Positions 2,839 through 60,300 of a DNA stretch of 64,000 nucleotides are shown in pieces. Position 1 is the first letter of the stretch; every line of letters starts with the position of its first letter. This DNA is from Siphonodentalium dalli (taxonomy: Eukaryota; Mollusca; Scaphopoda; Gadilida; Siphonodentaliidae). Under the pieces are notes generated by a model. That model searched no databases, had not been told where the DNA came from, and worked only from the letters and a program-made list of their open reading frames with translations. Location of the stretch: positions 79,696,705 through 79,760,704 of the forward strand of contig CP136067.1 in the NCBI GenBank assembly GCA_032622095.1, read 5' to 3'. The translations under genes were made by a program, and so were the position numbers.

Positions 2839-3099
2839 TTAACTGGAGTGTCCTGAAATTTTGCGAAAACCCTGTGCCATGGCATTCTCTTATATATGCG
2901 AGTCTCACATAGGGAGTCTCACATATATAAGAGAATATTTTGGCCTAACAATATTTACCTTGACTGTGTAAGGTCCTGTTCCAGTGCATTTCTCTTATAT
3001 ATGCAAGGCTCTCTACGGATGACTTGCATATATAAGAGAATGCACTGGCACAGGACCGTTAATGCTGTACCAGCGCAACTCCTGTGATGAAAGAGTTAA
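2839..3099. mobile_element. TTAA element with paired hairpins, degenerate ends
   Basis: It is bounded by TTAA at both ends; the left CCCTTTC box is lost and the right is GAAAGAGTTAA. Two long hairpins with CTCTTATATATGCGAG-type arms lie at about 2876-2944 and 2981-3051. The layout is the same as the copies at 39427, 43209, 44569 and 56370. Confidence 0.65.
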
Positions 3100-3631: not shown

Positions 3632-4314
3632 GGCCTAAAAAACAGTGTTTCTGCTAACCGGACCCCTCCAGGGTAGGGTATGTAGGTAGGGAATTAAATT
3701 TTTTTTTTAATTTCCCCACCGCCTGGAACCGCGTAATCAGTCCAATTTCCACAAAGCAGTGATTCATTTGGGCAGATATAACATCCCGCATACATAGACA
3801 TCATGTCTGCCATATTAAAATATGATTTAGAGTAACAGCTCCTATTACTGATTGTATTCCTGATTTCCTTGATATTTTAATTCCCAGTACCGACATTTAA
3901 AATAATAATTTATTCAACATGTACCTGTAGTCTAAGGCTAATGATCTTTTTGGTGTGTATATTAATTAGATACATGTACACATTATTGAAACAACAGAAA
4001 TAGAAATAGCCAAGTGGATAATTTGGCTAGTTTTCAATAACTTCCTTGCCCTGAGAATGTGAGACCTGCTATTTCAACTGTTCACAACTTATTCTGGGTG
4101 AACATTTTAAAAATAGAAATCTAGTCCAAGACGTATTACAAATCATCGACACATCTTCATATAGGCTTTAAATATTATGTTTCTGTATAGACATTATATT
4201 TAATATATTTAAAAAAAAAAAAAAAAAAAATCAGCACAAAATTATGACAATCGGCGGTTTCGGACATGGGTCGGTCGGGTTAGCAGAAACACAGGTCATT
4301 TTGTTTAGGCCTTA
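3632..4314. mobile_element. AGGCCTAAAA / TTTCTGCTAACC terminal-inverted element
   Basis: The left end AGGCCTAAAAAACAGTGTTT with CTGCTAACCGGACC is mirrored by GGTCGGGTTAGCAGAAACACAG and TTTAGGCCT at the right. There is a poly-A tract near 4210. Related termini occur at 32810-34225 and 53984, and looser ones near 30985-31050. No coding capacity. Confidence 0.6.
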
Positions 4315-8601: not shown

Positions 8602-9870
8602 ATAGCACCCGGCATATGGTATCCAAAATTTACACCGTTTTTTTTATGGGCATTGTTGTGTTGCATAAAACCTACTGACTGGAGACTATAATCTATTGCC
8701 GAATTCAGCTTGGATGGCTGATTTGAGATAGTGTAGTTGAATTTTTACATTTCCCAGACCCGATGACCTACCTTATTGTTGAATTCTGAGAGCACTTGAC
8801 AAGCTTGGTCCTCTGGTCCTGTCTGTAATGTGAGTAGGGCAAGATCATCCATGACAATCAACTTATTTATCAACTAAAACAACAGTGAAAATAATGCATT
8901 AGTGTGAAAAACAAGATCCGATCACATATACGCTATTTTTGACCATCTTGTTGATCGAAATGCTTCCTTCCAGATCGATAAATAATCAATTCTGAAAATC
9001 TAATGGCCTACATATCTCGAGCACGACGTGAAACGTGCCGATAATCAAATTGTGATCGGTGGGATTCTTTCTCTTCAATGTATTTGCATTAATTAGTCCT
9101 CGCATTGAATTTGTGCTTCACAAGGGAAGGTTGGGTAAGTCACCATCCCCCAATTTATAACAATTGGAAATTTCATATCTGATACAACAGGATCCGGCAA
9201 GCCTAGTGGGAAATTGTACACCAACAATAATAGGTGGAATTTCGAAAGTATTCTCGTAGTTCGATTTTCCAACGAATTATTAGTGGTGAAGTTGTTGTTT
9301 TTATATACCAACTGTGATATATGATCCTGCCATCATTTGGAAATTGTCCAACCTCAAGGGGGTGTCAGGTATGAAATTCCAACAATTGGAGAGCTTGGTG
9401 CCAGCTAGGCTTTTGCAGTTTTCATGTTCAGATTTCAAAATGTTCTCCCATTAGGTTGTTCTAGGGGTCCTGGTCCATCCTCGGTGTCCAGTCAAGAACT
9501 GTTAATTGATTAAAACAAACCGAGGATTGAGTTTGCCTTGAGATACACCTCTAGATGCTAGGAGTTTTCAGTTTAATTTTCAGGTTCAGATTTTCAAATT
9601 TCCCCCCACCGGGCTGAGGTGTCCTGCAAGGTTCGCGCATCCGGTGGGCAGTCAAAAACGGCTAACAGTCAAATGATACCCATACACGTCCTAATTAGTC
9701 AAGATGGCCAAGTCATGTTCTACCGTTTTTGAGTCAAAATGTACTTTTGTCTAAAAACGTTAATTGATTCATATACAATTTATCAACAACAAAAAAACTA
9801 TATCAATTAACTGAATCATGTATTGGAATATCATCTAAAATACGATTTCTTTGGATTCGGGGGTAAAAAA
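8602..9870. other. Unassigned intergenic sequence
   Basis: No coding frame is supported. A segment near 9350-9420 (GGGGGTGTCAGGTATGAAAT) loosely resembles 55040-55130 in the FNBP4 intron, which suggests a worn repeat. Confidence 0.35.
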
Positions 9871-12800
9871 AATATGTTATAGTACATAATATGTAATCGA
9901 GTCGAGGAACCCACCCATCAAAGCTCAGAGTGAACAGATATCGATTTTTTAAGTTTGTTATTTCTCGAGATGTGTAATAATATGTAGCCCAGAAACACGT
10001 ACGTGGTTAAACGGGTGGTCTCGGACAAAATTGCGAAGATGGAAAACTCTAAAATCAAGTGGTAATAACCCAGTTTCGTTAAACAAACATCTCATAATCC
10101 CCTCACACCTCCTAATTACAATAATTTTAGGCGGGCGGGTTGTTCCGGAGTGAAACGGGCGGGTTGTCTCAGGGGCGGTTAGTCACGGACCCGGTAATGG
10201 GTCGGTAATACGGTCAAATTTCTTGATACTTTAGCGATAATACGGCCATATTTTGTTGAACAAAATGTTGATAAATAACAAGTTTTGGGAAATTTGATAC
10301 CATAGTTGACAGTGTAGTATGGTCGTGGTACGCAAAAAAGGGGGTTAGACCCAAAATAAATTGGTAAAGAAGCGATTTTGGTGTAATTCAACGCGGGAGA
10401 ATCTCTGGTACAACATATCCAAAATCCGCTGAAATCCGCTTTGGGGAAAATCCAGGATCCAATATGGCGTCCAACATGGCCGCCGTCAGTCAAAAGAGAC
10501 TCTGACTGAGATTAATTAGATTATAGTGAGAACAAATGTTGTCATATGTATACAAATGTATACATTTTTGCGAAGGTAAAATATTATGCCACCTGTTTAT
10601 GGCAAAAATGGAACCCCTCGTCCAAAATGGCGGCCTAAACTCGAAAATTTGAAGTTTTTGTCTAATATCTTAAAGCTCAGTTCCTGTTGTTTGATAATGG
10701 TTCAGACTGACAACTTTGCTTAGTCTTATTCGTGTTAATTCAGCATTGGAGCAATGGAAGATACCACAAATGGGGTCCCAGACTCATCCACACCCTCAAA
10801 AATTCGATTTTACAGAACGCGGTATAAAATTGCACAAAAATCGCCATAGGAATTCCAGTCATATATCAACAACAAATTGACAGAACTGCACAATTTAAGT
10901 TGGGCATACCATTATCTATGATACTCCAATTCAATGAAAGCCAAATTGGCGCTTTGTCTCAAAATGGCTGCCAAAATGGCGGTCAAAATATGGAAAATGG
11001 CGGATATTGTCCAGAGTGTCATTCAATCGATTATAAGTAGTGGTTGATTGACTAAATAAATACGAATGTATACCTCTTCATGATGTCATTATGCTAGCTC
11101 TATAGAAAAACTTAAAAATCCGTACCCAAAATGGCCAACCGATGTGAAAATTACTATTTTCTATCACTTCTTTTTATCACTTATTGCTCTCTGAACTGGG
11201 GTACAATGAATATACTCTTTCAATGGTCGTGTCAACTGATCATTCCAGCAATGACATGTGTAATCGTTTAGGTCATAGTTTACTCCGGTCCTTCACTCAT
11301 TAGTTCTAACGAATGCGGTATGAAATTTAACCAAAATCGGCTTTGGGGTTCTGGTCACATTCGATATTTAGGGATGAACAGATCTTGTCTACAAAATATT
11401 TGAGCGTTTCTTTTATTTGTGAACATTCCATCTCAAAATGACCAAAAGAAATAATAAATTTTATCTAATATGGCTTCCAAAACGAAAATGGTAGACTCTG
11501 CCCAGCTTGTCAAATAATGGAAGTTGTGACTGGTGGATGCAGTTGATAATTGGCTAATCTATGTGCCTTATATACATCAAAACTAATATTTATAATAATG
11601 GAGACTTGGTCTATTTTGGTGGCTTCCCGCAGGTTGGCAAATATCAACTATTCGGGCTCGGCCATCATTTCGAACACTTACGGTACACGGTCGCGATAGT
11701 CGCAAAATATTGATCCAGAATATAAACAGAGAGCGATATTGACTTCAGAATACCCTATCGGTATAAAATCAGTCGGGAAAACTTTAAGATCCGAGATGGC
11801 ATCCAATATGCCCCCCCCCCCCCCCCGACAGCGATAGAAGTCATAAATAGGATATTTTCTCTTTGATTCCTTTTCGAAAAAAAGAGTTTTACATGCATAT
11901 ATATCTCTTATTGAATACAGTATTGTTTTAATCTGGAATATGTATGAAAAATCATATTCCCCAAACCTCTTAAGATGGTTACCAAAACTGGAACGTGTCC
12001 GATTTATAGCAGGTTGAGATACACTGGGGAAAAAACCCTTTAGTTGGACGGTTTCGATAGATAGAAATTAAACACAATGACTATAAATTTCCGCTAAACG
12101 GATTGTGAACACACATTTTTCGACATCATTGTTAGTGCTAGCTGGAACTAAATGTAGCACATGGATTCCCCATTTCGACATGTACGAAAAGTGGTTTTAC
12201 TCTTAGCTCTTCTCATATATCAACACTCCGGTGAATGGTGATGTATTATGTCCTAGAAAATACTTGTGCCAAATACATATATGTATGAGGAAACTATCCC
12301 CATACATTGTTTACACATCGAATCAGTAAATATGTGGAGGTCTTCTTGGACAAGCGTAATTTTCAAAACTCGAAACCGTCTTTACAAACAGTAAAAGTTC
12401 ATAGGAAATGACGTTGGATGTAGGTCTAGAGTACGTCGTCTGCAGGAGATAGTTTTGGTGTCAATAATTTGCACATATTTCTGATCAGCATGGATGAAAG
12501 CCTTATATATATATGTGGCAGTTTGATTGTCTAGCATCCGGAAAATATTCTGAACATATGGAGGCAATACCCATAACATATAAATAATAGGCTAAAATCG
12601 ACCGGAATACTCAAAGCGTTCAGATCCAGCCGTGGCGTACATTGTGCATACAGATCATTGATGAAATTCACTCGATGTGTATAAGATATCGATGTGTATA
12701 TATATTTATTAAAATGTTTCTATCCACATGTATATACCCTCAGTCGCATGACACGGAATTGTCACATGGAGTGTGAAGGGTATACAATGTACGTGCGGAT

Positions 12801-35439: not shown

Positions 35440-36385
35440 AAGTTTAGTTGTCGGCGCAAACTTTGGTCAGTTGAATTTTTTTTACCCATGTCTCACAAAG
35501 TGACTTTGCAGTGGTTGCAAGCATGAAGCTGCCAGTACAATCCAAAGCACTTCTAACTTGAATGGTCATCCTGTCACTGTAGCCATGCCGACGAATACAC
35601 ACTAGAACCTGTACCACCATCGGCACAGGCCAGGATGTCATCACCAAGAGGTGGACGGACATCAGAAATGTTCGAACATTTCTAAACAAGTTCTAACACG
35701 AAGTTCCATGGAATGTGTCTCTTCACCGAACAGACAAACTGAATCTGCATTGAATAAACAACTTCCGTTGTCTTTCACACTAATCGGGATTGAACCCAAC
35801 CACTGCGGTCCAAGAAGTTTGGAAGCCTGGGCATCCCGAACATACCTGCGATACTGGTGGACCTCTTTCACCCAAACTCGCTTTTCCAACCTCAAAATAT
35901 ATCTTTCCTCAAAGCATATTTAACTACACTACCAGTTGTCCTTCCAGCTATCAATCTCAGATGGGATTCATCCCAATCGATGGAACCAGACCTGGAAATG
36001 CACTTCACTCACAAATACAGTAATGCCCTAATTAATCGACTCCATAACCACAGCAGAATTATGGGTAACTTTTCAGGATTTAGTCGGAAATATGGCTTGC
36101 CATTCATCCGAAAGCTCTCAGCGAGAGCTTTCTGATGAATGGCAACAAGCCATATTTCCGACTAAATCCTGAAAAGTTACCCATAATTCTGCTGTGGTTA
36201 TGGAGTCGATTAATTAGGGCATTACTGTAGCCCAAGGAAGATTTTCCAAAGAAATTGAATTCCTTCCCTTTTAAGTTCTCACACGGAAGGTGGAACAACT
36301 TGTCGCAGAGATCGCAAGCGATGCTTTTGATCTCGTGACATTCATCACCACAAACTCCACATGGGTAGCACGGTTTTGAAGACAT
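35440..36385 (-). pseudogene. Broken transposon gene with PHD finger and OTU/vertnin-like segment
   Basis: Reading leftward from ATG at 36385, about 50 residues form a PHD-type zinc finger (CYPCGVCGDECHEIKSIACD, then LCDKLFHLPC; Cys/His spacing as expected). A 210-bp palindromic element (36018-36227) interrupts the frame. Beyond it, 35895-35662 reads RRYVRDAQASKLLGPQWLG, then SIPISVKDNGSCLFNADSV and a THSMELRVRTCLEMFEHF segment. The D-x-G-S-C-L-F plus ELR-R pattern is that of the OTU/vertnin-like domains found in invertebrate transposon proteins. A stop follows, and DDILACADGG-like sequence continues in another frame, showing at least one frameshift. It lies inside the 31952-37161 element and may be its own lost coding region. 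Confidence 0.55.
36018..36227. mobile_element. 210-bp palindromic MITE, TA TSD, CAGTAATGCCC ends
   Basis: It is an almost perfect fold-back: the left half to ATCCGAAAGCTCTC is mirrored to CAGTAATGCCC, with TA on both sides. Termini of this kind are common in pogo/mariner relatives. It breaks the PHD/OTU pseudogene. A second copy lies at 59212-59406. Confidence 0.85.
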
Positions 36386-38713: not shown

Positions 38714-38803
38714 TTAACCCTTTCAGTGCCAAGTCCGAATTTTGTATCAACCTATATTTCCTTGTGATACATTGATGGAAAGAGCTCTTACTGAAAGGGT
38801 TAA
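38714..38803. mobile_element. 90-bp TTAA element
   Basis: TTAACCCTTTCAGT and ACTGAAAGGGTTAA are perfect 14-bp inverted ends around a short centre. It has the smallest interior of the TTAACCCTTT group, with no obvious paired hairpins. Confidence 0.75.
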
Positions 38804-39360: not shown

Positions 39361-42300
39361 GTTACTTGTGTATGTTGGATATAAAATTTATCAATCTAGA
39401 ACCTAGTGTATAAGATTGACTTTATATTAACCCTTTCATGACGGGAGCTGCGCTGGTGCAACACTAAAGACCCTACTGTGCCAGTGTATTATCTTATGCG
39501 TGTCTCCCATAGGGAGTCTCATATATTAGAGAATGCACTGGCTTACAAGGTCATGGTAAATATTTCTAGGCTAATGTATTTGATTATATATGCGAGGCTC
39601 CCTATGTGAGATTTGCATATATAAGAGAATGTATTGGCACAGGGTTTTTCGCAAAATGTCAGGAAGCTTTAGTTATGGAAGGGTTAAGGCTTTATTGTCA
39701 CCTGTTCATAATTTACTTATTGGAATTTTGAATACTCATTTAAAGGCATTAAACTATAGATATCAGATTTAAGGTGGCACGGACTCAGTATTTGTGTTTA
39801 TTACTTCAAACGTGCTTGCTTGTGTGTGAACAAATTCTCATTTCTGTATTCAAGACCAGCTACCTTCTCTGAGCCGTATATCATCGAGTCTGTCAAACCA
39901 TTCAAATATAATTTCTGCAACAATTTCAACCAGATCCACTCTATTTTTTTCAGAAATATGTTTAAACTAAAGTGCATTTTTAAATATTGTTCAGTTCATT
40001 CAGTCCTAACTTACTACTCAATATATTTTTGAGAAATAGTCCGCCAATAAAAGTTACTGTATATCATAATGTAGAAGCATTTGTTCTTCAATTTTGCATT
40101 CTGTCAGTTATAGATCTGTCGTGATGCTTCTGTTTGCTTGAGAAGTCAGGGTGCAATTCTTAACTTTCTCTTCACAACATGATTTATGAGTAATTTTATT
40201 TTATTTTTATTATTCTCATTGTCCATTTTCAGCAAAATATGGATATAACAGAAGTGAGGATGCAGAAAATGATGCTACTGTTCCTGCAGCTGCTCCAGGT
40301 AATTATTTTCTTTGAAAAAGATCCAGATTGTGACTAAATATTGATGTTAACATTATCACCATACATCCATTTTTAGCTCAACTTTACTTTGTAAAGTTTG
40401 AGCTATTGCCATGGCTTTGCCATCCGTCGTCCGTGTGTGCGTGATCCGTCAACAATTTCCTTTAGCACGGGCTACAGGTCGTACCTTTGGTCGGATCATT
40501 ATGAAATTTGTCACGGCTGTTGACATTGACATGTATATGGGAACGAGTCATTTTGGGGTCATTCAGCAAAAAAACATGGCCACCAGTGGCCATCTTGGAT
40601 TTCAAAATTCAAACCATTAGCACGGGCTACAGGTCGTACTGTTCATCTGATCATCATGAAATTTGTCATGGATATTAATATTGACATGTAGATGGGAACG
40701 AGTCATTTGGCCAAAAAACATGGCCGCCAGCAGTCATATTGGATTTTACTCTTTGCATGACTAAATCCTTTGGCATGAGCTACAGGTCGTAGCTTTTGTC
40801 GGATCATCATGAAATTTGGGATGGATGTTAACAATGACATGTAGATGGGAACGAGTCATTTTGGGGTCATTCGGCCAAAAAACGCCAGCAGCCATCTTGG
40901 ATTTTACTCTTTACATGACTAAATCCTTTGACACAGGCTACAGGTCGTATCATCATGAAATTTGGGATGTATGTTAACAATGACATGTAAATTGGAACGA
41001 ATCTTTTTGGGGTCATTCAGCAAAAAAACATGGCTGTAAGCGGCCATCTTGGATTTTACTCTTTGCATAACTAGGCCTTTCAACTTTCCACATTACTAAT
41101 CACTCTATTGACTGTAACACATGAAATTATTCCCTTTCCAAGTTGAGCTACAGTGTCATTGCCACTTTCATTTCTTCTTATAAGACATTTTTTAGTCTCC
41201 CGAATTTCAGCTCTATCTAGCCCCCTCCTGATCGGGAAACAGTTTCTATGGAATTCAGTAAGCCATTGAAGACCAAACTTCCTGTATGCATGCAGCTCAC
41301 TGTATACAATAAAAGTCACATAAATGTGACTGTCATAATATTCTCTCAATGAAAACGAGCTGCATAATTAGCCTAGCCATCCAACTATCCAAACATAGCA
41401 TATCTCAACACAGCTATTGTTGCCCACCTGACATTCCGTTGGAGGACTATAGTAATGACCCTCGTCCATGCGTCGGGAACTTTGTCCATGCCTGTATTTT
41501 GTCATTTTCTGTTAATTTTTTTTTAAACTTTGCAGATATATCAACCAGCATGGGAATCTGCACACCTGTGATTTTGCGTTCGGTCAGACTCATTTTGGCG
41601 GAGTTAATGCCCTTTTTCAACAGATTCGTACATCCAATATTTTGTCCGAGCCTGTATCATATTCACTCAGCGAGAAACATATAATTTTACCCAAAGTTAC
41701 AAAAACCTGCATAATAGCAGAGCAGAATAAACTGGAATATATGACATCATCACAGTTGGTTTAATTCCACATACTTTCGTGAAGAATGCTGTGGTGTCAA
41801 AGTTCATTTCTTCCTGGATGTATGGCAGTCCTACTGCTAAGATGTTGCAAGACAAGACAATGTGTTTGTGATTTGAAGTTAATGAATAAAAAAATTGTCT
41901 TTTATTAATATATGCCATATTCAAAATGAGCATGGACCAAAGTTAACAATCAGTTTGCCTGAGTAAACCCTAACAAACAAATGAACTAATTTTGCCTGGA
42001 ATTAAGCTTTATGTTATGTTTTAAAGTCATATATTACTTTAATGTTTATAATGCTGTTATTCATCTGGTATTATTTAGCTCTAAATTGAGTAAAAATAGA
42101 AAGTTTTTAGTTTTAAAAAGTCTTCGGAATTTGGGCAACATCTCCCAAATTCTGAAGATCGATTTTCTGAGATTAGCGTGCCAGATGTTAACATGTATGC
42201 TTCTAGTATGTTTCAAATAATTTTGACTTGTGGTTGTTTATGTTAGTTTTTTAATGGGACTGTATATTTACGGTTCTTTATTTAGCTCAATGCCTTACCC

Positions 42301-45300
42301 ATGGAGTTAATTACGGGCTGCTGTCAGATCTGAAGTTTATCGGTAGGCTTTACGATGGAAAATACAATTTTATCGTCCATAATGAGGAGCCGATCAAAAT
42401 CATAAAATGGATATTTTTATAGAAAAACAGAGTAATAAATGTCCCAAAATCGCACCAGACAGCATGTTATCCCCATTCTAATTCACATGGGCCGAATAAT
42501 GATACCTTAAGCACAAGAGTCTGCAAAATAGTTATCGAAACCCATAGCTAACTGTTTTCAAAATAGTCCATGTCAAATCCTCCTGGAAAATGTGTCCCGG
42601 TCCATGAAAATGTAGTCCCATATTTCAAAGAGAAATAAGCCAAGCTAATGAAAGGAATCTGTGATAGCCATCAAATTGAATTCCATATCAGGCCAAGGTA
42701 ATGGATATTCATAACTTGCAAGTTTTGTTTCCAAGTTTCACCAAGGTAGTGCAAGCCAACAGTATTGGGGCGAACAATGGTTCTGTTTTTGCTCTGTCAT
42801 TTTCACTGTCAATTATTTAATTTTCCCGATGTTATCTGACTCATCTTCGAAGACCTGTTTCAATTGAAATGTGGACACTGACAATGCAAAAATCACAGAA
42901 AATGTGAGACTTGAAAGCGATGCGTGCCGTCTAAATGAATGCCTGAAGTTCTTTGCACCTTACTGACTCAGCACATATGTCTGTATTCGTAAATACAAAT
43001 ATACACAAACATATATACATGTATCATATATGTGTATATACCCAGAACTTCACAACTGTGGTTAATCTGATTCACTAGATGGGGTGGATGGGTAAAGTAC
43101 ATCCAGCTCAGTGTTAGTGAGCTGTATAACCATACATATAAACAACACAGATCCTGATCTGGACAAATACAAAATATATATATTGTATGACTTTTATTAT
43201 TGATATCTTTAACCCTTCCATGCTGGAGCTTCCTGAAATTTTGCAAAAACACTGTGCCAATGCTTTTCCTTATATATGCAAGTCTGCCATAGGGAGCCTC
43301 ACATATATATATAAAAGAATACATGACCTAACAATATATAACTTGACCATGTAAGCCAGTGCATTCTCCTATATACGCGAGGCTCCCAAAGTCTCATATA
43401 TATATAAGGGAATGCACTAGAACAGGATATTTAAAGATGCATTAGCAGTTTGGTTTGAAGTGATGTTAGACATGCCTCTGGAAACATTACTCCCTTCATG
43501 AGACATAATGGGTAGTAGAAGGCTGAAAAAAGGTTTGTTAACTGAAGTTGTATATCACGTCATGAAAGGGTTATTTTACCATTTCACTGTATGAACTTTG
43601 TCAATAAACCAACTATCTACGATCTGATCTATGGAATGCCAATTATTTGTGTGCTCATTAGTATATATTAAATTTAATTTGTTGGTGCTGCTAACTAAAT
43701 GGTTCTGTTATGAGTTCTGTTTGGTATCCCAACCAATTCGGACAGGAGTGTATCTATTCTTTGACAAGGCATGGAAAATCTTAACCATTTTATAGTTTGG
43801 CTTAAACAAAAATGTATTATTGTTGAACAAAAAAATGTGGCCAAAAGAAGAACCATGTAATTGAATGATACCAATATATGAATTTCATACTTACTCTATC
43901 GAGAATGAAGACTGCATAATACTTGATTCTCTCCCCATCAGAATGTTCCCAATACATGTTCTACCTATTTCTCATGTCCACACTATATTTCTTATTTCTG
44001 GTCAGTAGGATAATCATATGAGAGAAACAGCCATGTGAACTGTAACCCTTTATTTTCTGAATTTCTCCCATTCAGTTATAAAAGAATACATGACCTAACA
44101 ATATATAACTTGACCATGTAAGCCAGTGCATTCTCCTATATACGCGAGGCTCCCAAAGTCTCATATATATATAAGGGAATGCACTAGAACAGGATATTTA
44201 AAGCTGCATCAGCAGTTTGGTTTGAAGTGATGTTAGACATGCCTCTGGAAACATTACTCCCTTCATGAGACATAATGGGTAGTAGAAGGCTGAAAAAAGG
44301 TTTGTTAACTGAAGTGGTATATCACGTCATGAAAGGGTTATTTTACCATTTCACTGTATGAACTTTGTCAATAAACCAACTATGTACGATCTGATCTATG
44401 GAATGCCAATTATTTGTGTGCTCATTAGTATATATTAAATTTAATTTGTTGGTGCTGCTAACTAAATGGTTCTGTTATGAGTTCTGTTTGGTATCCCAAC
44501 CAATTCGGACAGGAGTGTATCTATTCTTTGACAAGGCATGGAAAATCTTAACCATTTTATAGTTTGGCTTAACCCTTTACCCAACAGAAGGGCCCTGTGC
44601 CAATGCATTCTCTTATATATGCGAGTCGACCATAGGTCGCCTCGCATATATAAGAGAATGCATTGGCTTAACACATTAAAAATTATAAAATTGTTAAAGA
44701 ATGTAAGAAAAAATGGTAAAAAGTGTTAAAAAAAGATTTTTTTTAGGCCAATGCATTCTCTTATATATGCGAGGCGACCTATGGTCGACTCGCATATATA
44801 AGAGAATGCATTGGCACAGGGCTAACTGTAACTATCACAATGTAGTCAAGGAGCCGGTTCCAATGATATCCATATTTGTATGGTTCTATTGAGACAGACC
44901 GAAGATATTTTAGGCTGTTGAAGCTTTATTTGGCCGGTTTTGGCCGGTTTGTTGGGTAAAGGGTTAAACAAAAATGTATTATTGTTGAACAAAAAAATGT
45001 CGGCCAAAAGAAGAACCATGAACTAACTACATGTAATTGAATGATACCAATATATGAATTTCATACTTACTCTATCGAGAATGAAGACTGCATAATACTT
45101 GATTCTCTCCCCATCAGAATGTTCCCAATACATGTTCTACCTATTTCTCATGTCCACACTATATTTCTTATTTCTGGTCAGTAGGGTAATCATATGAGAG
45201 AAACAGCCATGTGAACTTTAACCCTTTATTTTTCTGAATTTCTCCCATTCAGTTATAAAAGAATACATTGGAACGGTAGTTCATCTGGAGGGATGATCAG

Positions 45301-48300
45301 GAAATATAAGCTAACGGATGATATAAAAACAGATAATAAAATTGCAGAAGGTTCCCATTGATTGGTATGAAATGTTCAGACAATAAGTTCAACAAATAAC
45401 ATTATTGCTGACACTGACTCACTGGTTTGCTTTAATAAAATCTTTGAAATATCTTTGTAGCAGAACCTGTAGAGGAAGACGACAAACTCACACAGAGGGG
45501 ACTGAGTTTACTGAATCAGTACAAAGATTCTGACGATGAATCGAGTGAAGACGATAATAGTAAGTTTTACATATTAAATGTTATAAAAGTATCTGATATA
45601 GGATATTGTTAACTTTTTTTGATGTCATGCAGCATCACAAATGGACTTCCCAGGGCTATCTTTCTGTACATATGTAATTATTTTGTGTATATATTGGTAG
45701 TATGTTGTATCTCAGGTATTTTTGTCACCCCGAAAAAAATATTTCGGGGGACTATTAAAATAGCCGGTGTCCGTCCGTCCGTGCGTCCATCCATGCGTCT
45801 GTGTGTCCGTGCGTCCGCGGTTTCCGGATGATAACTTTAGTTAGAGTGAACCAAATTAAATTAAATTTGGTATGTGGGTTTACTAGCAGAAAAGACAGGT
45901 CAAGTTCGAATTCTGGTTCTTCCGTCCGCCAATTTTCACCAGAGTTATGGCCTTTTTTACTTAGAAAACCCCTGAAAGTTGGTTTCCGGATGATAACTTT
46001 AGTAGAGTTAATCGGATTCAAACCAAAATTGGTATATTACTTTCTCCCAGCAAAACACAGGTCAAGTTCGAACTTGGGTTCTGCCCGACCATTTTTGGCA
46101 GAGTTATGCCCCTTTTTTAACATAGAAAATTCAGTTTTTCTTCTGTTTTTAGCTCAACTTACTTTTGTAAGTTTGAGCTATTGCCATGGCTTGGCGTCCG
46201 TCGTCCGTGTGTGCGTGTGTCCGTCAACAATTTCCTTTGGCGCGGGCTACAGGTCGTACCTTTGGTCTGATCTTTATGAAATTTTGCATGAATGTTGACA
46301 TGTAGATGGGAACGAGTCATTTTGGGGTCATTCGGCCAAAAAACATGGCCGCTGGTGGCCATCTTGGATTTCAAAATTCAATCCATTGGCGCGGGCTACA
46401 GGTTGTACTGTTCGTTTGATCATCATGAAATTTGTCATGGATGTTAATATTGACATGTAGATGGGAACGAGTCATTTTGGGGTTGTTCAGCCAAAAAACA
46501 TGGCCGCCAGCAGCCATCTTGGATTTTACTCTTTGCATGACTAAATCCTTTGGCGCGGGCTACAGGTCGTACCTGTGGTCTGATCTTTATGAAATTTGTC
46601 ATGAATGTTGACATTGACATGTAGATGGGAAACGAGTCATTTTGGGGTCATTCGGCCAAAAAACATGGCCGCTGGTGGCCATTTTGGATTTCAAAATTCA
46701 ATCCATTGGCGCGGGCTACATGTCGTGCTGTTCGTCTGATCATCATGAAATTTGTCATGGATGTTAATATTGACATGTAGATGGGAACGAGTGATTTTGG
46801 GGTCGTTCAGCCAAAAAACATGGCCGCCAGCAGCCATCTTGGATTTTACTCTTTGCATGACTAAATTCTTTGGCGCGGGCTACAGGTTGTAGCTTTGGTC
46901 AGAACTTCATGAAATTTGTCATGAATATTGATATTGACATGTATATGGGAACGAGTCATTTTGGGGTCATACGGCCAAAAAACATGGCCGCTGGCAGCCA
47001 TCTTGGATTTTACTCTTTGCATGACTAAATCCTTTGGCGCAGGCTACAGGTCGTAGTTTTAATCAGAACTTCATGAAAATTGTTATGGATGTTAACAATG
47101 ACATGTAGATGGGAATGAGTGATTTTGGGGTTGTTCGGCCAAAAAACATGGCCGCCAGCAGCCATCATGGATTTTACTCTTTGCATGACTAAATCCTTTG
47201 GTGCGGGCTACAGGTCGTACCTATGGTCTGATCTTTATGAATTTTGTCATGAATGTTGACATTGACATGTAGATGGGAACGAGTCATTTTGGGGTCATTC
47301 GGCCAAAAAACATGGCCGCTTGTGGCCATTTTGGATTTCAAAATTCAATCCATTGGCACGGGCTACAGGTCGTGCTGTTCGTCTGATCATCATGAAATTT
47401 GTCATGGATGTTAATATTGACATGTAGATGGGAACGAGTGATTTTGGGGTCGTTCAGCCAAAAAACATGGCCACCAGCAGCCATCTTGGATTTTACTCTT
47501 TGCATGACTAAATTCTTTGGCGAGGGCTACAGGTTGTAGCTTTGGTCAGAACTTCATGAAATTTGTCATGGATGTTAACAATGACATGTAGATGGGAACG
47601 AGTGATTTTGGTGTCGTTCGGCCAAAAAACATGGCCGCCAGCAGCCATCTTGGATTTTACTCTTTCAATGACTAAATCCTTTGGCGCGGGTTACAGGTCG
47701 TACCTTTGGTCTGACCTTTATGAAATTTGTCATGAATATTGATATTGACATGAAATTTGTCATGGATGTTAACAATGACATGTAGATGGGAACGAGTCAT
47801 TTTGGGGTCATACGGCCAAAAAACATGGCCGCTGGCAGCCATCTTAGATTTCAAAATTCAATTCATGGCACGGGCTACAGGTCGTACTGTTTGTCTGAAC
47901 ATCATGATATTTATCATGGATGTTAATATTAACATGTAGATGGGAACGAGTCATTTTGGGGTCGTTTGGCTAAAAAACATGTCCGCCAGCAGCCATATTG
48001 GATTTTACTCTTTGCATGAATAAATCCTTTGGTGCAGGCTACAGGTCGTAGCTTTGGTCGGAACTTCAAGAAATTTGTCATGTACACTGTATGTTAACAA
48101 TGACATGTAGATGGGAAACGAGTCATTTTGGGGTCTTTCGGCCGAAAAACATGGACGACAGCAGCCATCTTGGATTTTACTCTTTGCATGACTAAATCCA
48201 TTGGCACAGGCTACAGGTCATACCTTTGATCAGATCATTATGAGATTTGTAAAGGCTGTAGATGGGAACAAGTCATTTTGGGGTAATTCGGAAAAAAACA

Positions 48301-51300
48301 TGGCTGCCGGTGGCCATTTTAGAATTTACTCTTTGCATCAATAAATCCTTTGTCACACCATAATCACCACATCCCTGATCCGATCATTATGAAACCTTTA
48401 ATGAATGTTGATATTGACATGAACATCTAGTCTTACTTAGACATTTCAATTAGCACTTTTCCTATTCCTCCATTTACTGTCGACCATTAAATTATTCCCC
48501 TACCTAAGTTGAGCTACAGTGTCATTGACACTTTCATTTAGTTTCCGGATGATAACTTGATTTTGGATTGTTTATATGTTTTTTGTGGATTACTTATATC
48601 AAAATACAGCTCAAGTTCGAATTTCGGTTTAATCCGATAATTTTTGCGAGAGTTATGGCCCTTTTTTGTCCGCCGACCCGACATATAAAACCCCAAAAGT
48701 TGGTGTCCGGATGATAACCTTAGTAGAGTTAATCAGATTTCAACCAAATTTGGTATGTGTCTTTCTCCCAGCAAAACACAGGTCAAGTTCGAATTCGGGT
48801 TCTGCCCGCCAATTTTCACCGGAGTTATGTCCCTTTTTGACTTAGAATTTTTGCCAATTTGAGGTTTCCAGATGATAACTTTAGTAAATGTGTACTGAAT
48901 GAAATTAAATTTGGTATGTAGGTTTACTAGCACTAAAGACAGGTTTTTATGCGCAAACAACGGTCGTATCAAGCCGACACTTAGAGGCGGACATGAGGTC
49001 TACCGACCTTTTATTTTACTTAGAATCTTGTAATTTTCTGGTTTCTGGATGATAACTTCAGTTTGTGTGATCATATCTGAACCAAATTTGGTATGTGAGT
49101 TTATCAGCCCTATGTACAGGTCAAGTTCGAATATGGGTATGCTCCGCCCATTTTTGCGAGAGATGTGGCCCTTTTTCGACTTGTTTTACTTAGAAAATTT
49201 CTCAAGTTTAGATCCTTCAATTGCAAATACCGTTTTTATGTGGATCAGTCATATCACGATACAGGTCAAGTTTGAATTTGAGATTGAACCGATGATTTTC
49301 TCAGAGTTATTGGCTTTTCGACTTAGAAAATTCAATTTTTCTTGTAATTTTCTTCATTTTGTGCCAATTTGAGGTTATATTTTGACTTTAAGAGTTTTTT
49401 TAAGATTTGGTTATTTGTATGCATGTCAGTAATGAGACAATGCACAAGTGTTTTATCCATATAGTATACTTCTACAAAGCCTCCGCTGCAAATGAAGCCA
49501 CCGGTTAGGGGGACACTGTGGCCGAGCGGCCTTTTATCTTTGTTCAACTTGTCTGTAAGACAGGGTGTAGGTTTTGTTTTGTAGTGAGTGAGAATAACTA
49601 GGTAAAAATGTGGGCTGGAGACATTTTCTCTGGGTTTTCGCAAAGTGAAATTAGGACTTTTCATGAGGAAATTCGGATCACGTTTTTTTGGTTACAATCG
49701 AGTTTTGTACGGCTGACTATAATATGGTTAATGCAATATATGCCTTCATAATTTGGCAATTAAATGCATTAAAAGTTGGTATCCATATTATTCTGTTAAC
49801 ATGATTGTCACTAGTTTTATAGGAATGTTTGCTGGACTGTTAATATTTGGGACATTTAAGGACATCTACCGTTCCGGTCGGTGTATAAGTCGCATCTTTT
49901 TAACCCAATTTGCCCTATTAAAATCCTCCTGCGACTTATAGATCGGTAAGTCAATGAGGGGCATATTTTCAGCCGAATTTTGAGGAATCAACTGCGATCA
50001 CAGGTAAATAACGGGACAAAATGCCGACGCAAACTAACTGCAACGCGATAAAATAATACAATTCGGTATACAAAAAAATAAATAAATACCCCATCCTCAT
50101 ATGTACTTTGTCTTTATTTTATTCCCTGTCCGACATTTAAAACATATATCGTATTATATGTATTAATATCTAAGAATTCAACCGCAAACATCAGCAAATT
50201 CAAAACAGTGGGCGTCCTTGACCTGACTGTGTAACATGTGCATGAGTGACCCACATTCAATGACTGCGTTATGATCTCTTTGATGTCTGCAAACTTCTAG
50301 CAGATGACATCACATCGGAATGTTTATTTAAACCCCTGGAATGAGCATAATAAAAGCCCTAAAGACTCTAAATGCATGTCTGGTCAGCGTGTTCTCATAT
50401 TTTAATGAGGCTTATGTGCGAAGCCGCGAACGCCTGTTTATATTACATAAACATTATTTTATGCTGTACCGTGTACTCATAACATTTAATCCCCACGTTG
50501 AGTAGTTGACACTTAATACTGAAGAGTGCATTGCATCACTATTAGCCCAAAGTGTTTTCATTCATGCTTCACGACAATTAGGCGACAACTAAATTAACGA
50601 GGCCATTATCCTAAAACAACAGTAAGCCGAGTCTCAGTTTTATATTCCTATAAATGATTCAAAATTTTGTGTCTTTCCTCATACCTTAAAACTATTCAAA
50701 CGACATCGTGCTTCATTATACCTATCAGTTTTCTTCGAATTCAAAATGGATAAACGTGGCATCAAAAGGAAACGTCTAAGTTACGAAAGTTCATACAAGT
50801 TGAAAGTGATAAAATTCGCAAATGAACATGGTAATCGGCCCGCAGAACGAGAGTTTGGTGTTAGCGAGAAAATAATCAGGGACTGGCGCAAAAAGAAAGA
50901 TATGATTTTTGTCATGCGTAGAGGCAAACGAGCAAATCGTGGCAAAGCTGCACCCAGAGTTAGTCCAAACATCATTCAAGTCAAAATAATAAGGTTTATA
51001 ATCCATGTTCCCACACACTCCTAATAAAAATGAATCAATGTTATCTCCCCTGCTTGGGAATTCCCCCAAATCACATCGGGAATACCGGAAGCATTGGTGG
51101 AATGTTCGTTCATTTTTACGTCTGTGATAAATTCTATTTAAAAAAAATGCTTCCTCTGCTCTAAATAACTCTAAATCCAGGTCAATGTGTCATTTTGATG
51201 TTCCCTTACAAGCCACTGAAATAGGTGCGACGTATACAACAGAAAGAGCCAAAAGGCAACATTTTAAGCTTCAAAATTCAATGCGACTTATCCAACGATG

Positions 51301-54300: not shown

Positions 54301-57300
54301 AATCGGAAGTTCATCGGATAAACTGAACAAGAAATTGCTACATGATTTGTTTAATTTAAGACCCAATTTGGCTGTCTTTCAATTCATTTATTGTTCAGTC
54401 AGCTGAACGTGAGTACACTCGAGTATGTTTGCTTTTAATTCCCGAGAGGAAGACTTTTCAGAAAGTATATTTATCTTCCAATGAGATAAGGCATAACAGA
54501 TCCAACATTTTTATTGCTGACTAATATGCACTGCTACCATGTTGTAATGGGGTGGGCTTATCTTTGAGGACCACCCTATGTTTGTTTTGAGAGCAAAAAC
54601 TAAGACTTGGCTTTGTGTGGGACTACTGATGGCTGTAAACAAAATATGACTTCTTTTTTTTGCAATATATATAAAGTCTGAATATCTCTGGTGACAAGGC
54701 ACTGGTGACTTTGCGAATAGGCCATTAATAGTTCTATATTATTCTATGTGTTCAGTGCACCCCATCCTCCCCCATGGAAACGTAAACCTTGACTATTTTT
54801 AGTTACCACTGTGAACTTTGCATGAACTGTTTAACTAATTAGTTCCTGTCATGTGACATGCAGTCGACACAGATAATCCACAAGCATAAGCAGTTATTTA
54901 TTAATGAGTTATTATAACTAACAGTGCAGCTGAGCATATTTTTACACAAGGTTCCAAGCTTTGTTTATTTTTATACCAATACTGGGAATAGTAGCATATT
55001 TTTATGCTTTTGGTTAAATTATCCAACCTATTAAAGGGGGATGTCAAGTTGGAAATTTCAAATAGTTGGGAAGCTTGAGGTACCAGTTGAAAAGTTGCAA
55101 CCCGAAGGGTATGTGTGCAAGTGGAGTTTCGTGAACCTGGTGTAATGTCTGGTTTGTGGGGCTGAAATGCCACTGTCACCCCTTTCATTCAGTTGGGTAT
55201 CCAGCTTTTTTTTTATTTTCTGTTGGGCACCCAGCTTTTATCAAATTTACATTTGGGTACCCAACTTTATGAAATCAGTCTGCATGGACCTATGTTCCAT
55301 GCCTACAATTCTTCTCTGCTATGATTTTCAAGCATTGTGATGAATATATATCATATATAAACAAGTATTCACAAATTTAACAGGTTCATTTCGAAAACAA
55401 CTGACAGCATTCACTAATTAGTTCACATTCTGTGTGAGATTTCATAAGCTGGGTACCCAAATGTAATTTTTGTAAAAGCTGGGTACCATGCAACTAAACA
55501 TTTTTTAAAAGCTGGGTACCCAACTGAACAAAAGGGGGTGACAGTGACCATTTCAGCATTAGTGGGGGGTTGGAAATTTCAAAGTGGACACCCTTCCAAC
55601 TGAGACCATCTAGTGGGCATGCTACATTTAATTAAAAGGGTAACACACAGCCTATAAAAAATGGAATATACAATTAGTTCAGTGGCATAATGTGTACATG
55701 TAGATTGTGCCCCATACCCCTTTCTTATCCTGAATACCAATTTATAATACAGAGGGGTGAATCGCGCATACCATTTAAGAAAAATGGAATAAAAACAGAT
55801 TTACTGGTAAACTATAGATGCTAGTTTTAACACCTTTTCTTTAGTATAGTGTCGACAACATTGAACAAATCAAGAAGATTCAGTTTGAATTTTATAAAAT
55901 TTTGACAACTGGCTGAGAAATTATAAAAACTGAACAATATGGTGCCATAAAGCTCATACTAACCAGTCTGTATATACATTTTATACACTCAACAGTCATA
56001 CTGACATATTATGTGCGTCTGAAGTTTTCTGAGACTGCATACTATTAAAGCTAACTTTTTGTAAAATCCTGAATAGCGGTTAATTTGGGTGTTTGAATTT
56101 TGAGTATCTGCTAGCAGGAGATATAGCCTGTGCACTGCTTACCATGGTACCGGTACCTGAATCCTGCAAGCCAGAAAGGAGTGGGGGAGTAAGGTAGGTA
56201 ACAAAAAAAACACATGATCAAAAAGTATTGCCAGGAAATATGTGAAATAAATTCATAATCAGCTCTAAATTGTGGGGGCACCAGACGAGGGGGTGTGAAT
56301 TTTTTTTTTACCTACCTACCTTACTCTGGAGGGGTCCTGTTAGCAGAAACATGGATAATTTTAATTGATTTAACCCTTTCATGATGGGAGCTGCACTTGT
56401 GCGTCATTACAGATCCTATGCCAGTGCATTCTCTTATACATGCAAGTCTTCCATAGAGAGCCTTTCATATATAAAAGAATGCACTGGCTTAGAAGGTCTA
56501 TGGTAAATATTGTTAGGCCAATGTATTCTCTTATATATGCCAGGCTCCCGATGGGAGACTTGCAGATATCAGAGAATGCATTGCCACAGTGTTTTAAAAA
56601 AAAATCCGTAAGCTCCAGTCATGGAAGGGTTAATATTTAATTATTTATTAGTGCAATATCTTAGGCCAAAAAAAAAAAGTGTTTTGGTTCTCGGGCAATT
56701 TTTTTCTTCAAATCAATGAGGGAGGGAGGGTTTTATTTTTATTTTTTATTTTTTTCTGCGCATAGTAAGCATGGACAAAGATACCTTCCTCTGTCTAGTA
56801 ATAACCAGAAAGGTAGAGGGAACTGTTATGCATATAAACTCATTTAGTCTTATATAAAAATGACATTGTACTACCAGTGTCTGACTGGGATTACCTAACA
56901 ATATATAATGCCCCTGACATTAACTACTGTTATTGTTGTCTAAAAACTGATACCTCCCCATTCTAATATGTGATCCTGAATTTAGTCCTGTGCCTTTCAA
57001 TTGTATAAAGTTACAATTAGTGTAAGTTGTTCACAATGAAGAGCATGAGGATCAGCTAATCATTTTCTTAATTGTAATGTAGTCATCTACTTCATGTTGT
57101 AAGCCTGCAAGTCACTTTTTAACACATTACATGTTAGAGCTAATATTCAACACATATCTGCTATGGACATGTTGACAAGTTTTTTTGTCATAACATCAGG
57201 CATTGCAATAAAAAGGCCTAATGCGGCCCTTTTTATTCAATGCGGCGGGGCCTGAGAACCAAAACTTTTTTTTTTTGGCCTTAATATTTATTTTTTTTCA

Positions 57301-60300
57301 ACAGGAAATACAAGCAATATCAGAGCCGACTGGTAGCGATGACAGAGTAACCCCACCCATTGGTGGTGATGTCACCCCTCCCATGGATACATCGGAAAAA
57401 ACAAAGGAGATATCGTCATACAAACAGTTTGTTAAAGGAACACCTCAGGTTACAGAGAAGACAAATAATCCTGAAACTGAAAAGAAGGCAGAAGAAGAGA
57501 AAGAAATGGTGTTAAAAGGTACAATTAGTTTAGGTCTGGTAGAAATGCTAGACAACAATTAGTCCAGTGATAGCATAGTAAATGACAAGTAATACATTAT
57601 TTTAATATTATTTTATTTCGAACATTTGGATCACCAGACATTCAGGGGAGTACACAAACATGAATCCAGTTAATTCTGGGTACGAAAACTCATCAGGAAG
57701 ATGTGATTACACAGAAAATTGGTTGAGATATGGCTAAACCTCTGGTCCACACTCACATTATGTGAGAGATAAAGAAATTTTACTACTGCAAATTTTTTGG
57801 AAATTAAATGCGAAAATCAGACTCAACCTTTTTGAAAACTGGGAAAGCTCCTCGCCAAGCAAACTGGACAAAACTGAATACCATTTAGCAGAAAGTATAA
57901 TATAGGAGATATATATATATATTTAAAGATATGTGGCACGGGCTCAGTAGAATAATTCACTTTCTTTCATTATCCTTCAAGTTGGTGGACATTCAATGTA
58001 TGTCATCACTGCATGCTTGCCTTGAAAGGCTATGCTGAGGAGTCCTTTAAGCATACTGATTCTGATATATATAATTTAAGAAATAGCTATTAAATAAATA
58101 AACAAAGGTTACACAAACATATTTCTTGTCAAAAAGGTTGTAAGTGTGATTTAAATAAGTGACCTACACTCAGAAAATTCAATTCACACACTTTCATGCC
58201 ACTTTCTTCATTACGAACCCGATTCGCTCACTTTGCTTAATGAATGCAGACAGTATTTGCTGCATTACTTGCAGTTATGGGTCCTGTTCTATCAAAATAA
58301 CCCGAATAGATGTCCTTGTTTCTCTTTGATTCTCTCAGAAATAGTGTAACTGTATGCAGCCAATCAGATTGCGAGAAAGTCTCGTGATATAATATATAAA
58401 CATAATACTTGCTTAAAATATTGAAATAACTGGCCTTTAATTAAGGTCATTGACAAGATGGAACCTCTCAACAAAAATCACATGGTAGCTCATTGAGCTC
58501 ATTTCATGCCTCGCATTGTGATATTAGCTAATTGGGTCTCAGATTTGCTCAAATGGGAGTGACCAGTCATAAAAGTTTGACCTATGCGACTTCACTCTTT
58601 CAGTAAAACTTTAATCTGAAATTTGAAAGTGTTCCATACATAAAAATGTCAGACCAACTTACATGGAACGGAACAAAATCCAATATACAATACTTGTTTT
58701 TACACACAACCGAGTCAACTGGCAGATAAATAGAGCATTTAGCACCCATTTCCAATGTGTTAATCTCGTTTCTCGTTGCATCTACACAATATGAAAGCAA
58801 GTAGGCTATGCGTGTGATGTCACATGACATGATTTGGACCAACCAAAATCCTGCATTCATGTTCCATAGCACCACGAATGCATATGTGAGTGTAAATATA
58901 TAAAATAAATAGTTTACACCTATATTTCTGTAAACATATAAATTAGTACACTTTTTACATTTGTTTTCAGAGCCTCAATCTGTTTGGGAGCGGTGTTTGG
59001 ATGAAGGCTCAACCTATCATTACTACTGGCACACATTGACAAATAAAGTTACATGGGAAATTCCAGCAGAATACACCCAATACCTGCTTCTTGTCAGAGA
59101 GTTCGAAGAAAAAGTGGAACGATACAAAAAGGAAGGAAAGAAGTACCATGTAATTAAAGAAGGCGAAGACAAATCTGAGGGGTGAGAAATTTAGACAACA
59201 GTCTCTAAATGCAGTAATGCTCTAAGTAATCGACTTCTTAACCACAGCAGAATTATGGGCAACTTTTCAGGATTTAGTCAGAAATATGGCTTGTTGCCAT
59301 TCATCGGAAAGCTCTCCCCAAGAGCTTTCCGATGAATGGCAACAAGCCATATTTCCAACTAAATCCTGAAAAGTTACCCATAATTCTGCTGTGGTTAAGA
59401 AGTCTACACAGTAATTTCGGTCCTCCGCTTTCTTCAGCATGTATCACACTGCCCAACCGATTCGATTATCAATGCAAACAGAGGCCTATCAGTGTCCTGT
59501 CAAAGTCTATTATCATGGGTTGGCATTAGTCCATGCATACACGTGTCTGTGCATACATCATCAACAATTTCCTCAGCACACCCTACAGTCCACATCTCTC
59601 ATCCGATCATCACCAATCTTCAAGGTGACCTCTAGATGGGACTAACAATTTATTCAGTAATTTGTTAAAAAAAACATGGCTGCCAGCAGCCATCTTGGAA
59701 TTCACATTTGATGAAAAACTTGCCTCCAGCAGCCATTTTCAACTGTTATATACCTGTATTTTTGATTTGCATATGTTGGCGTTATATTCTGCTGGCACGA
59801 TTTGTACAATTTATGCCCAAGAATTACTTAAAATGGACTAGAAATATAGAATGCCGATATCATAATGGCAAAATTTGACCTACCCCCTGGACTTGGTGCA
59901 ACCTATTTTTCTGCCTTAGACATGTGTCACATTGCCCCCAGTCGAACTGGACATCGCCAGGTTAAGACCTGGAAAATATCTCCTAGTAACTGGTTGTATA
60001 AACCTTGACATCATGATTTTATTTCAACAATATTTGGTCGATTCCTCACAGGCCTCAGCTCACAAGGCGACTCAGGCGAGATTTTCGCCTTACTGTCGCT
60101 GACTTCGCCCTATCGTCGCTCTAAGGCGAAATCGAAGTCGCCTTCAATTTTAATTTTTTTTTTTTTTTTTTTTTCTTTCTTTTTTTTTCTAGTTTTTTTC
60201 CCAGACATGTCCGTATATAGATGAATTGTGGCGGCCATCCCAAAAAGAAATGGACGATGCAGAGACAAAGTCCCAAGTGTTTAAAATAAAATATGACCTA

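Follow-up and report, generated by a model that had tools for sequence, protein, structure and literature searches.

The window, a stretch of 64,000 nucleotides of the genome of Siphonodentalium dalli, contains a non-coding element, X, which is a MITE of the piggyBac/TTAA kind, as seen from its ends, its target and its empty site. The insertion of X is a recent event. The preferred explanation, in which moderate confidence is placed, is that X represents a young non-autonomous piggyBac/TTAA-type insertion, and that the pair of hairpins forms a subterminal palindromic core, common to families with different ends and probably needed for transposition. The symmetry of the stems appears to be kept in transposing lineages and lost in settled ones, since the stem-pair changes in 40 copies of X are one-sided in 18 of 18 cases and the pairs differing between X and its sister family F2 are two-sided in 5 of 7.

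Structure of element X and its hairpins

The hairpins of X, H1 and H2, had been described in an earlier note; recomputation from the letters reproduced their coordinates, their 69-nt lengths, their perfect 27-bp stems and their exact reverse complementarity, as well as the flanking TTAA (44569-44572 and 44964-44967). The inverted repeat reported there is real but was understated, its full extent being 80 nt with a single mismatch (Table 1). Beyond the 27-bp stem, each hairpin continues through a T.C mismatch into an inner stem of 5 bp closed by the loop ATA; 32 of 32 stem pairs are Watson–Crick in H1 and likewise in H2. Folded as DNA, the hairpins reach -35.4 and -37.8 kcal/mol, and none of 200 shuffles did as well (z about -16). 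The two alternative folds suggested earlier were also recovered: the long-range pairing of the hairpins comprises 79 pairs and has an energy of -96.7 kcal/mol, compared with -75.0 kcal/mol for both local hairpins, and the fold of lowest energy for the complete X contains it. The palindromes of X begin at distances of 30 and 152 nt from its tips.

The terminal repeat within the TTAA, CCCTTTACCCAACA, has 14 nt and is perfect; it agrees with the 12–19 bp and the CC[C/T]T terminal motif given in PMC2872659 for this superfamily. The whole end repeat, TTAACCCTTTACCCAACA, includes the TTAA. The tandem duplication around X preserves the empty site: its first unit reads GTTTGGCTTAAACAAAAATG without interruption at the place where the second unit holds X, although a precise excision from the first unit would give an identical picture. 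A TTAA duplication with an empty site, a length of 399 bp, the lack of coding capacity and many near-identical copies are all features of a MITE.

A search of 2.23 Gb of the genome (9 contigs) yielded 377 candidate copies of X, the best 40 of which, a subset selected by score, are 98–100% identical over the full length. Of these 40 copies, 39 have distinct left flanks, and 36 retain an intact TTAA at both ends (manual count). The copies met in survey stretches are 91, 95.8, 96.5, 97.9 and 99.3% identical, and one in the flank of locus L008 is 83% identical and has a longer spacer. Because the best 40 scored copies are 98–100% identical, the perfect stems of X can be taken to reflect youth; the recent origin proposed in the earlier note is thus supported by these copies, by the empty site and by the 18-nt perfect end repeats.

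Table 1. Features of the window related to element X and to its hairpin core
Feature	Position	Strand	Remarks
Element X of family F1, TTAA type, non-autonomous, 399 bp	44569..44967	+	TTAA at both ends, 18-nt perfect end repeat, at least 40 genomic copies
X left end, TTAACCCTTTACCCAACA	44569..44586	+	18-nt perfect end repeat
X right end, TTAACCCTTTACCCAACA inverted	44950..44967	-	18-nt perfect end repeat
Hairpin H1	44599..44667	+	69 nt, 27 + 5 bp
Hairpin H2	44747..44815	-	exact reverse complement of H1
Left arm of 80-nt inverted repeat	44592..44671	+	79/80 complementary
Right arm of 80-nt inverted repeat	44743..44822	-	pairs with 44592..44671
Empty TTAA target site, first unit of local tandem duplication	43802..43805	.	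identity to the flanks of X 488/492 and 288/290
Tandem duplication, units 43310-44091 and 44077-45268	43310..45268	+	15-nt junction homology within hairpin arm of copy C
Sister family F2, copy A	2839..3099	-	8-nt insertion adjoining its H1 lengthens the palindrome
Copy B of F2, 261 bp	39427..39687	+	
Copy C of F2, one end lost	43209..43441	-	half repeated at 44077-44213 through the tandem duplication
Copy D of F2, 264 bp	56370..56633	+	
90-bp TTAA element without hairpins, end related to F3	38714..38803	+	88.6% over 44 nt to L044:2646-2688

Families sharing the hairpin core

The exact 69-nt hairpin has 87,632 copies in the 2.23 Gb searched (43,883 + 43,749), about one per 25 kb, and the reversed control has none (0 + 0), which excludes a chance origin. 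Matches to the core were found in 6 of 20 fixed-place 10-kb stretches, one of them comprising only 47 nt at an edge. The same core is carried by at least two further TTAA families whose ends differ from those of X. The window holds four copies of the sister family F2 (A–D), which are older than X and have the same two hairpins with other ends; the consensus ends of F2 are CCCTTTCATGATGGGAGCTGC and CCCTTCCATGACTGGAGCTTCC, and 40 of its 6,611 first-look candidates genome-wide were scored. The alignment of X with copies B and D is confined to the hairpins and a few flanking nucleotides. Outside the hairpins, five of six such comparisons are at shuffle level and that of the right end with B is borderline (20/500), whereas all three parts match between B and D (0/500 shuffles as good). 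A covariance model built from the 10 hairpins of the window revealed no family member there beyond the listed copies; its weaker matches at 59276, 36082 and 8509 (E 0.0006–0.05) are other palindromes.

A third TTAA family, F3 (L044:2446-2688), has different ends and a single hairpin, whose 69 nt (within L044:2566-2645) are identical to those of X. As this element has one hairpin and that at 38714-38803 has none, two hairpins are either not strictly needed or were lost later. In a fourth context, F4 (L042, L056), with the outer sequence GGTAAAAAAATCCCGACTTACGACTGGATTTGATATGGCGGGTCACA, no TTAA end is visible within the portion read; it is possibly another element class or an insertion of the core. 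The elements read are 243–400 bp in size, with one variant of 465 bp.

The core (ACCCTGTGCC-H1-spacer-H2-GGCACAGGGT) might be considered a separate foldback element, a passenger that entered several TTAA families as well as other DNA. It occurs in at least four outer contexts, including the one without visible TTAA; at L044:6945-7306, it is flanked by TTTTTTA and TAAAAAA, and the F3 hairpin keeps its identity to that of X despite the different ends. However, the loci read showed neither a target duplication nor an empty site left by insertion of the core, and whenever the two hairpins occur together, they keep one order across families, with constant flanks (TTAGGCC or variants on the inner side and CACAGGG on the outer), so this origin of the core is considered quite unlikely.

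Decay of the stems in settled copies

Window copies A–D retain 19–28 of 32 Watson–Crick stem pairs; 32 of their 35 private stem changes break such a pair and none is compensated. The 40 scored X copies comprise 2,560 pair cells; 18 of these cells are altered, 11 being mismatches and 7 G.T, always on one side. In 23 F2 copies (24 minus L067, the flanks of which are common to L067 and L064), rare stem variants, that is, those in at most two copies, amount to 101 one-sided cells and 4 two-sided ones; the only two-sided variant that still pairs is that of L074 at pair 5/65. Variants common to at least three F2 copies were set aside from these counts. They are mostly one-sided (pairs 2, 8, 12, 20, 24, 25 and 30-33) and include a two-sided change at 25/45, a CpG, which pairs and is present in L064, L068 and L078. 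The existence of several common one-sided variants in F2 counts against the preferred explanation.

The hairpins are no better preserved than their surroundings. Singletons in X copies number 16 in 138 hairpin sites and 39 in 242 sites outside (P=0.33), F2 substitutions amount to 6.7% in the hairpins and 7.3% in the rest (P=0.44), and conservation for B-D is 0.84–0.86 for hairpins and 0.77–0.88 for the remainder. Protection of the hairpins after insertion was considered and rejected: a first count gave a threefold lower rate (P=1.8e-6), which was caused by shared variants and an A/T run, and the singletons counted without the run gave the above P=0.33. The stems of resident copies decay like neighbouring sequence, neutrally. 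The active correction of resident copies supposed in the earlier note is not supported by the one-sided 18 of 18 changes in X copies and the 0 of 35 compensated in A–D; as for compensatory changes in the stems, settled copies decay freely, and compensation was found elsewhere, between the families X and F2.

The same counts bear on a regulatory role. Near-perfect stems of 69 nt fold strongly as single strands, as might be imagined for precursors of small RNAs (miRNA or siRNA) regulating elements or host genes, but Rfam gave 0 matches at the gathering threshold within the window, and the substitution density of settled-copy hairpins equals that outside, which makes such a role very improbable.

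Two-sided differences between families

Compared with the consensus of 23 F2 copies, X differs at four pairs in H1 and at three in H2, and five of these seven have new letters in both arms and remain paired: 5/65 (GC-AT), 30/40 (TA-GC) and 31/39 (CG-AT) in H1, and 30/40 (TA-GC) and 31/39 (CG-AT) in H2. At the remaining two pairs (25/45 in H1, 8/62 in H2), the difference from the consensus is one-sided, but F2 is polymorphic there, with the X state present in 5 and 6 F2 copies. Leaving these two out, the probability of such a placement by chance is 6.6e-5 for H1 and 7.8e-4 for H2; with the four window copies used instead and one-sided differences of this kind included, it is 4.5e-4 and 0.012. 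The differences in H1 and H2 are not independent of each other. The ratio of two-sided to one-sided changes is 5:0 between families and 4:119 within them (Fisher P=4.8e-7; one of the four still pairs), or 3:0 against 4:119 when distinct pairs are counted once (P=1.1e-4). Within the F2 consensus, H1 itself differs from H2 by the two-sided change at 5/65.

The new inner-stem sequence is identical in all four arms, a pattern for which a binding site with altered reader specificity is a natural explanation. Two-sided change of this kind is expected equally of a hairpin that has to fold and of a double-stranded palindrome read by a dimeric protein.

Copying between arms and rearrangement

An alternative is that the symmetry arises from copying and not from function, by template switching between arms and between hairpins during replication, so that families drift in concert. 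Such a mechanism has been published for RNA hairpins (PMC8794818), and it would also account for the identical inner-stem changes in all four arms. In copy A, the 8-nt insertion AACAGGAC beside H1 is the reverse complement of the opposite flank in 7 of 8 positions, lengthening the palindrome, and is a template-switch footprint. At pair 5/65 of X-type hairpins, the two-sided form (A-T to G-C) shows a weak excess across the genome, with 5 occurrences where 0.38 are expected (Poisson P=4.5e-5), an expectation derived for this single pair from the one-sided forms (162 and 203) beside 87,632 unchanged hairpins; the pairing two-sided change of L074 is at the same pair. Copying from arm to arm thus does occur, but since only 5 of 370 hairpins changed at 5/65 are two-sided, it is too rare to keep stems perfect. 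Template switching should act in settled copies too, where two-sided changes number, besides these 5 of 370, 0 of 18 in X copies and 0 of 35 in A–D. In A–D, moreover, the arms of one hairpin (0.226) are no more alike than the same arm across elements (0.203), and the T.C mismatch and the asymmetry of the loop persist both in X and in the F2 consensus. As the source of the symmetry, template switching is accordingly judged unlikely.

Two local tandem duplications break in a hairpin arm. One lies beside X and has 15-nt homology; the other, at L042 (8813-9420 / 9333-9940), has a step of 520 bp and breakpoints in hairpins, and its middle hairpin joins an F2-type arm to a non-F2 outer sequence. These duplications were sought at hairpins and therefore give no rate. 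Breakpoints in hairpin arms suggest how one core could gain different ends; they also lend circumstantial support, limited to these two duplications, to the fork stalling proposed in the earlier note.

Class of the element and possible transposase source

Transposases of the PF13843 family are plentiful in the genome (best 116 scored of 649 candidates, many of them open). The end of one such locus, L090, resembles the right end of X, with TTAACCCTTTA and two CCGGCC (80.6% over 36, E=1e-4). In 10 of the 116 scored loci, L090 among them, which were read over some 1.6 kb each way from the domain so that the ends may lie farther out, no hairpin-bearing autonomous partner was found, nor was an exact autonomous partner with X ends found in these partly read loci. 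Near the piggyBac-type transposase domain of locus L088, at a distance of about 1.1 kb, there is a different near-perfect hairpin with a 45-bp stem (3858-3954). Within the window, none of 108 open frames of at least 75 aa matched PF13843 (Pfam, E 0.001), the only matches being BrkDBD, WW and PHD. Patterns of the X end, the hairpin arm and the F2 end had 0 matches in viral contigs, and the hairpin-arm pattern had 0 in genome contigs of a viral and prokaryotic collection; both collections say little about eukaryotic elements.

PiggyBac of Trichoplusia ni and piggyBat have the TTAA target in common with X (PMC7351741, PMC11707139). According to the same sources, the piggyBac transposase binds 19-bp palindromic internal repeats, present in both ends, by means of a dimer of C-terminal domains. 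PiggyBac also resembles X in that palindromic repeats lie internally at both ends, unequally far from the tips; unlike X, where the palindrome has 69 nt and 32/32 pairs and there is no transposase gene, the piggyBac repeat is 19 bp long and is described as 'palindromic-like'. Kolobok and the T2-MITE of Xenopus also use TTAA, but their ends are given as AG/RR (PMC6004289) and those of X begin with CCC, and a Kolobok identity of X was rejected on this ground.

The nearest precedent, as it is described in the main text of PMC2872659, is CMITE of corals (Acropora). CMITEs are short TTAA elements with piggyBac-type CC[C/T]T ends, for which alleles with and without the element are reported. Compared by description, their internal region is more conserved between families than their terminal repeats, and the core of X is likewise more conserved between families than the ends. 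CMITEs differ from X in being about 100 bp long with a 75-nt core, and that main text refers to no palindrome, hairpin or stem-loop; the role of the CMITE core was left open by its authors. No paper on element X was found in the open-access literature searched, and element-specific strings had 0 occurrences in the papers listed. The palindromic core, its copy number and the two-sided differences between families were likewise not met in this literature.

Possible role of the palindromic core

The palindromes are, in our opinion, putative subterminal transposase-binding sites of a piggyBac-type MITE. Among the roles named in the earlier note, a paired transposase-binding site fits the between-family compensation best, with the binding itself remaining putative. 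Transposition would require the core in cis, most likely because the palindrome close to either end is bound by a piggyBac-type transposase dimer or by a partner protein. Copies would keep jumping only if their half-sites were symmetrical, and a shift in transposase specificity would cause all four half-sites to change together. The perfect stems of X would have been inherited from a functional source and would simply be young. Against binding stands the length of the palindrome, 69 nt being far more than the 19 bp bound by the piggyBac transposase; the preferred explanation as a whole has to accommodate F2 hairpins that are not more conserved than the remainder and the F4 context without visible TTAA.

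As a more tentative possibility, the twin-palindrome core itself may be the unit of selection, namely a cis-acting cassette that has passed between families whose ends are unrelated, through recombination or template switching at hairpins, and makes its carriers jump well. In that case, one 69-nt palindrome would have reached 87,632 copies because the cassette boosts the jumping of its carrier.

A single palindrome present in so many copies, in families with different ends, bears on the question of why some MITEs multiply massively, and makes it testable whether an internal palindrome, rather than a terminal repeat, drives amplification. Symmetry kept by a jumping lineage can be separated by a simple count from what settled copies lose, and so large a natural collection of hairpins would allow the copying from arm to arm to be measured.

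Other palindromes and repeats

The window also holds two copies (36016-36229 and 59207-59404, about 91% identical) of a different near-perfect palindromic element, which is about 200 bp long and apparently TA-flanked. The flanks of the X copies in L004 and L012 match a TTAA site of this element. A diverged tandem array with a unit of about 164 bp occupies 46233-48423, with a related block at 40370-41073, and TAGGCCTA occurs 11 times in the window, where less than one occurrence is expected from base composition (an estimate). On contig C1, exact hairpins follow each other nine in a row at steps of about 11.2 kb (826186-915885), and a further series recurs every 14,558 bp (742213, 756771, 771329); judging by their spacing, these regular series are probably tandem arrays carrying the hairpin.
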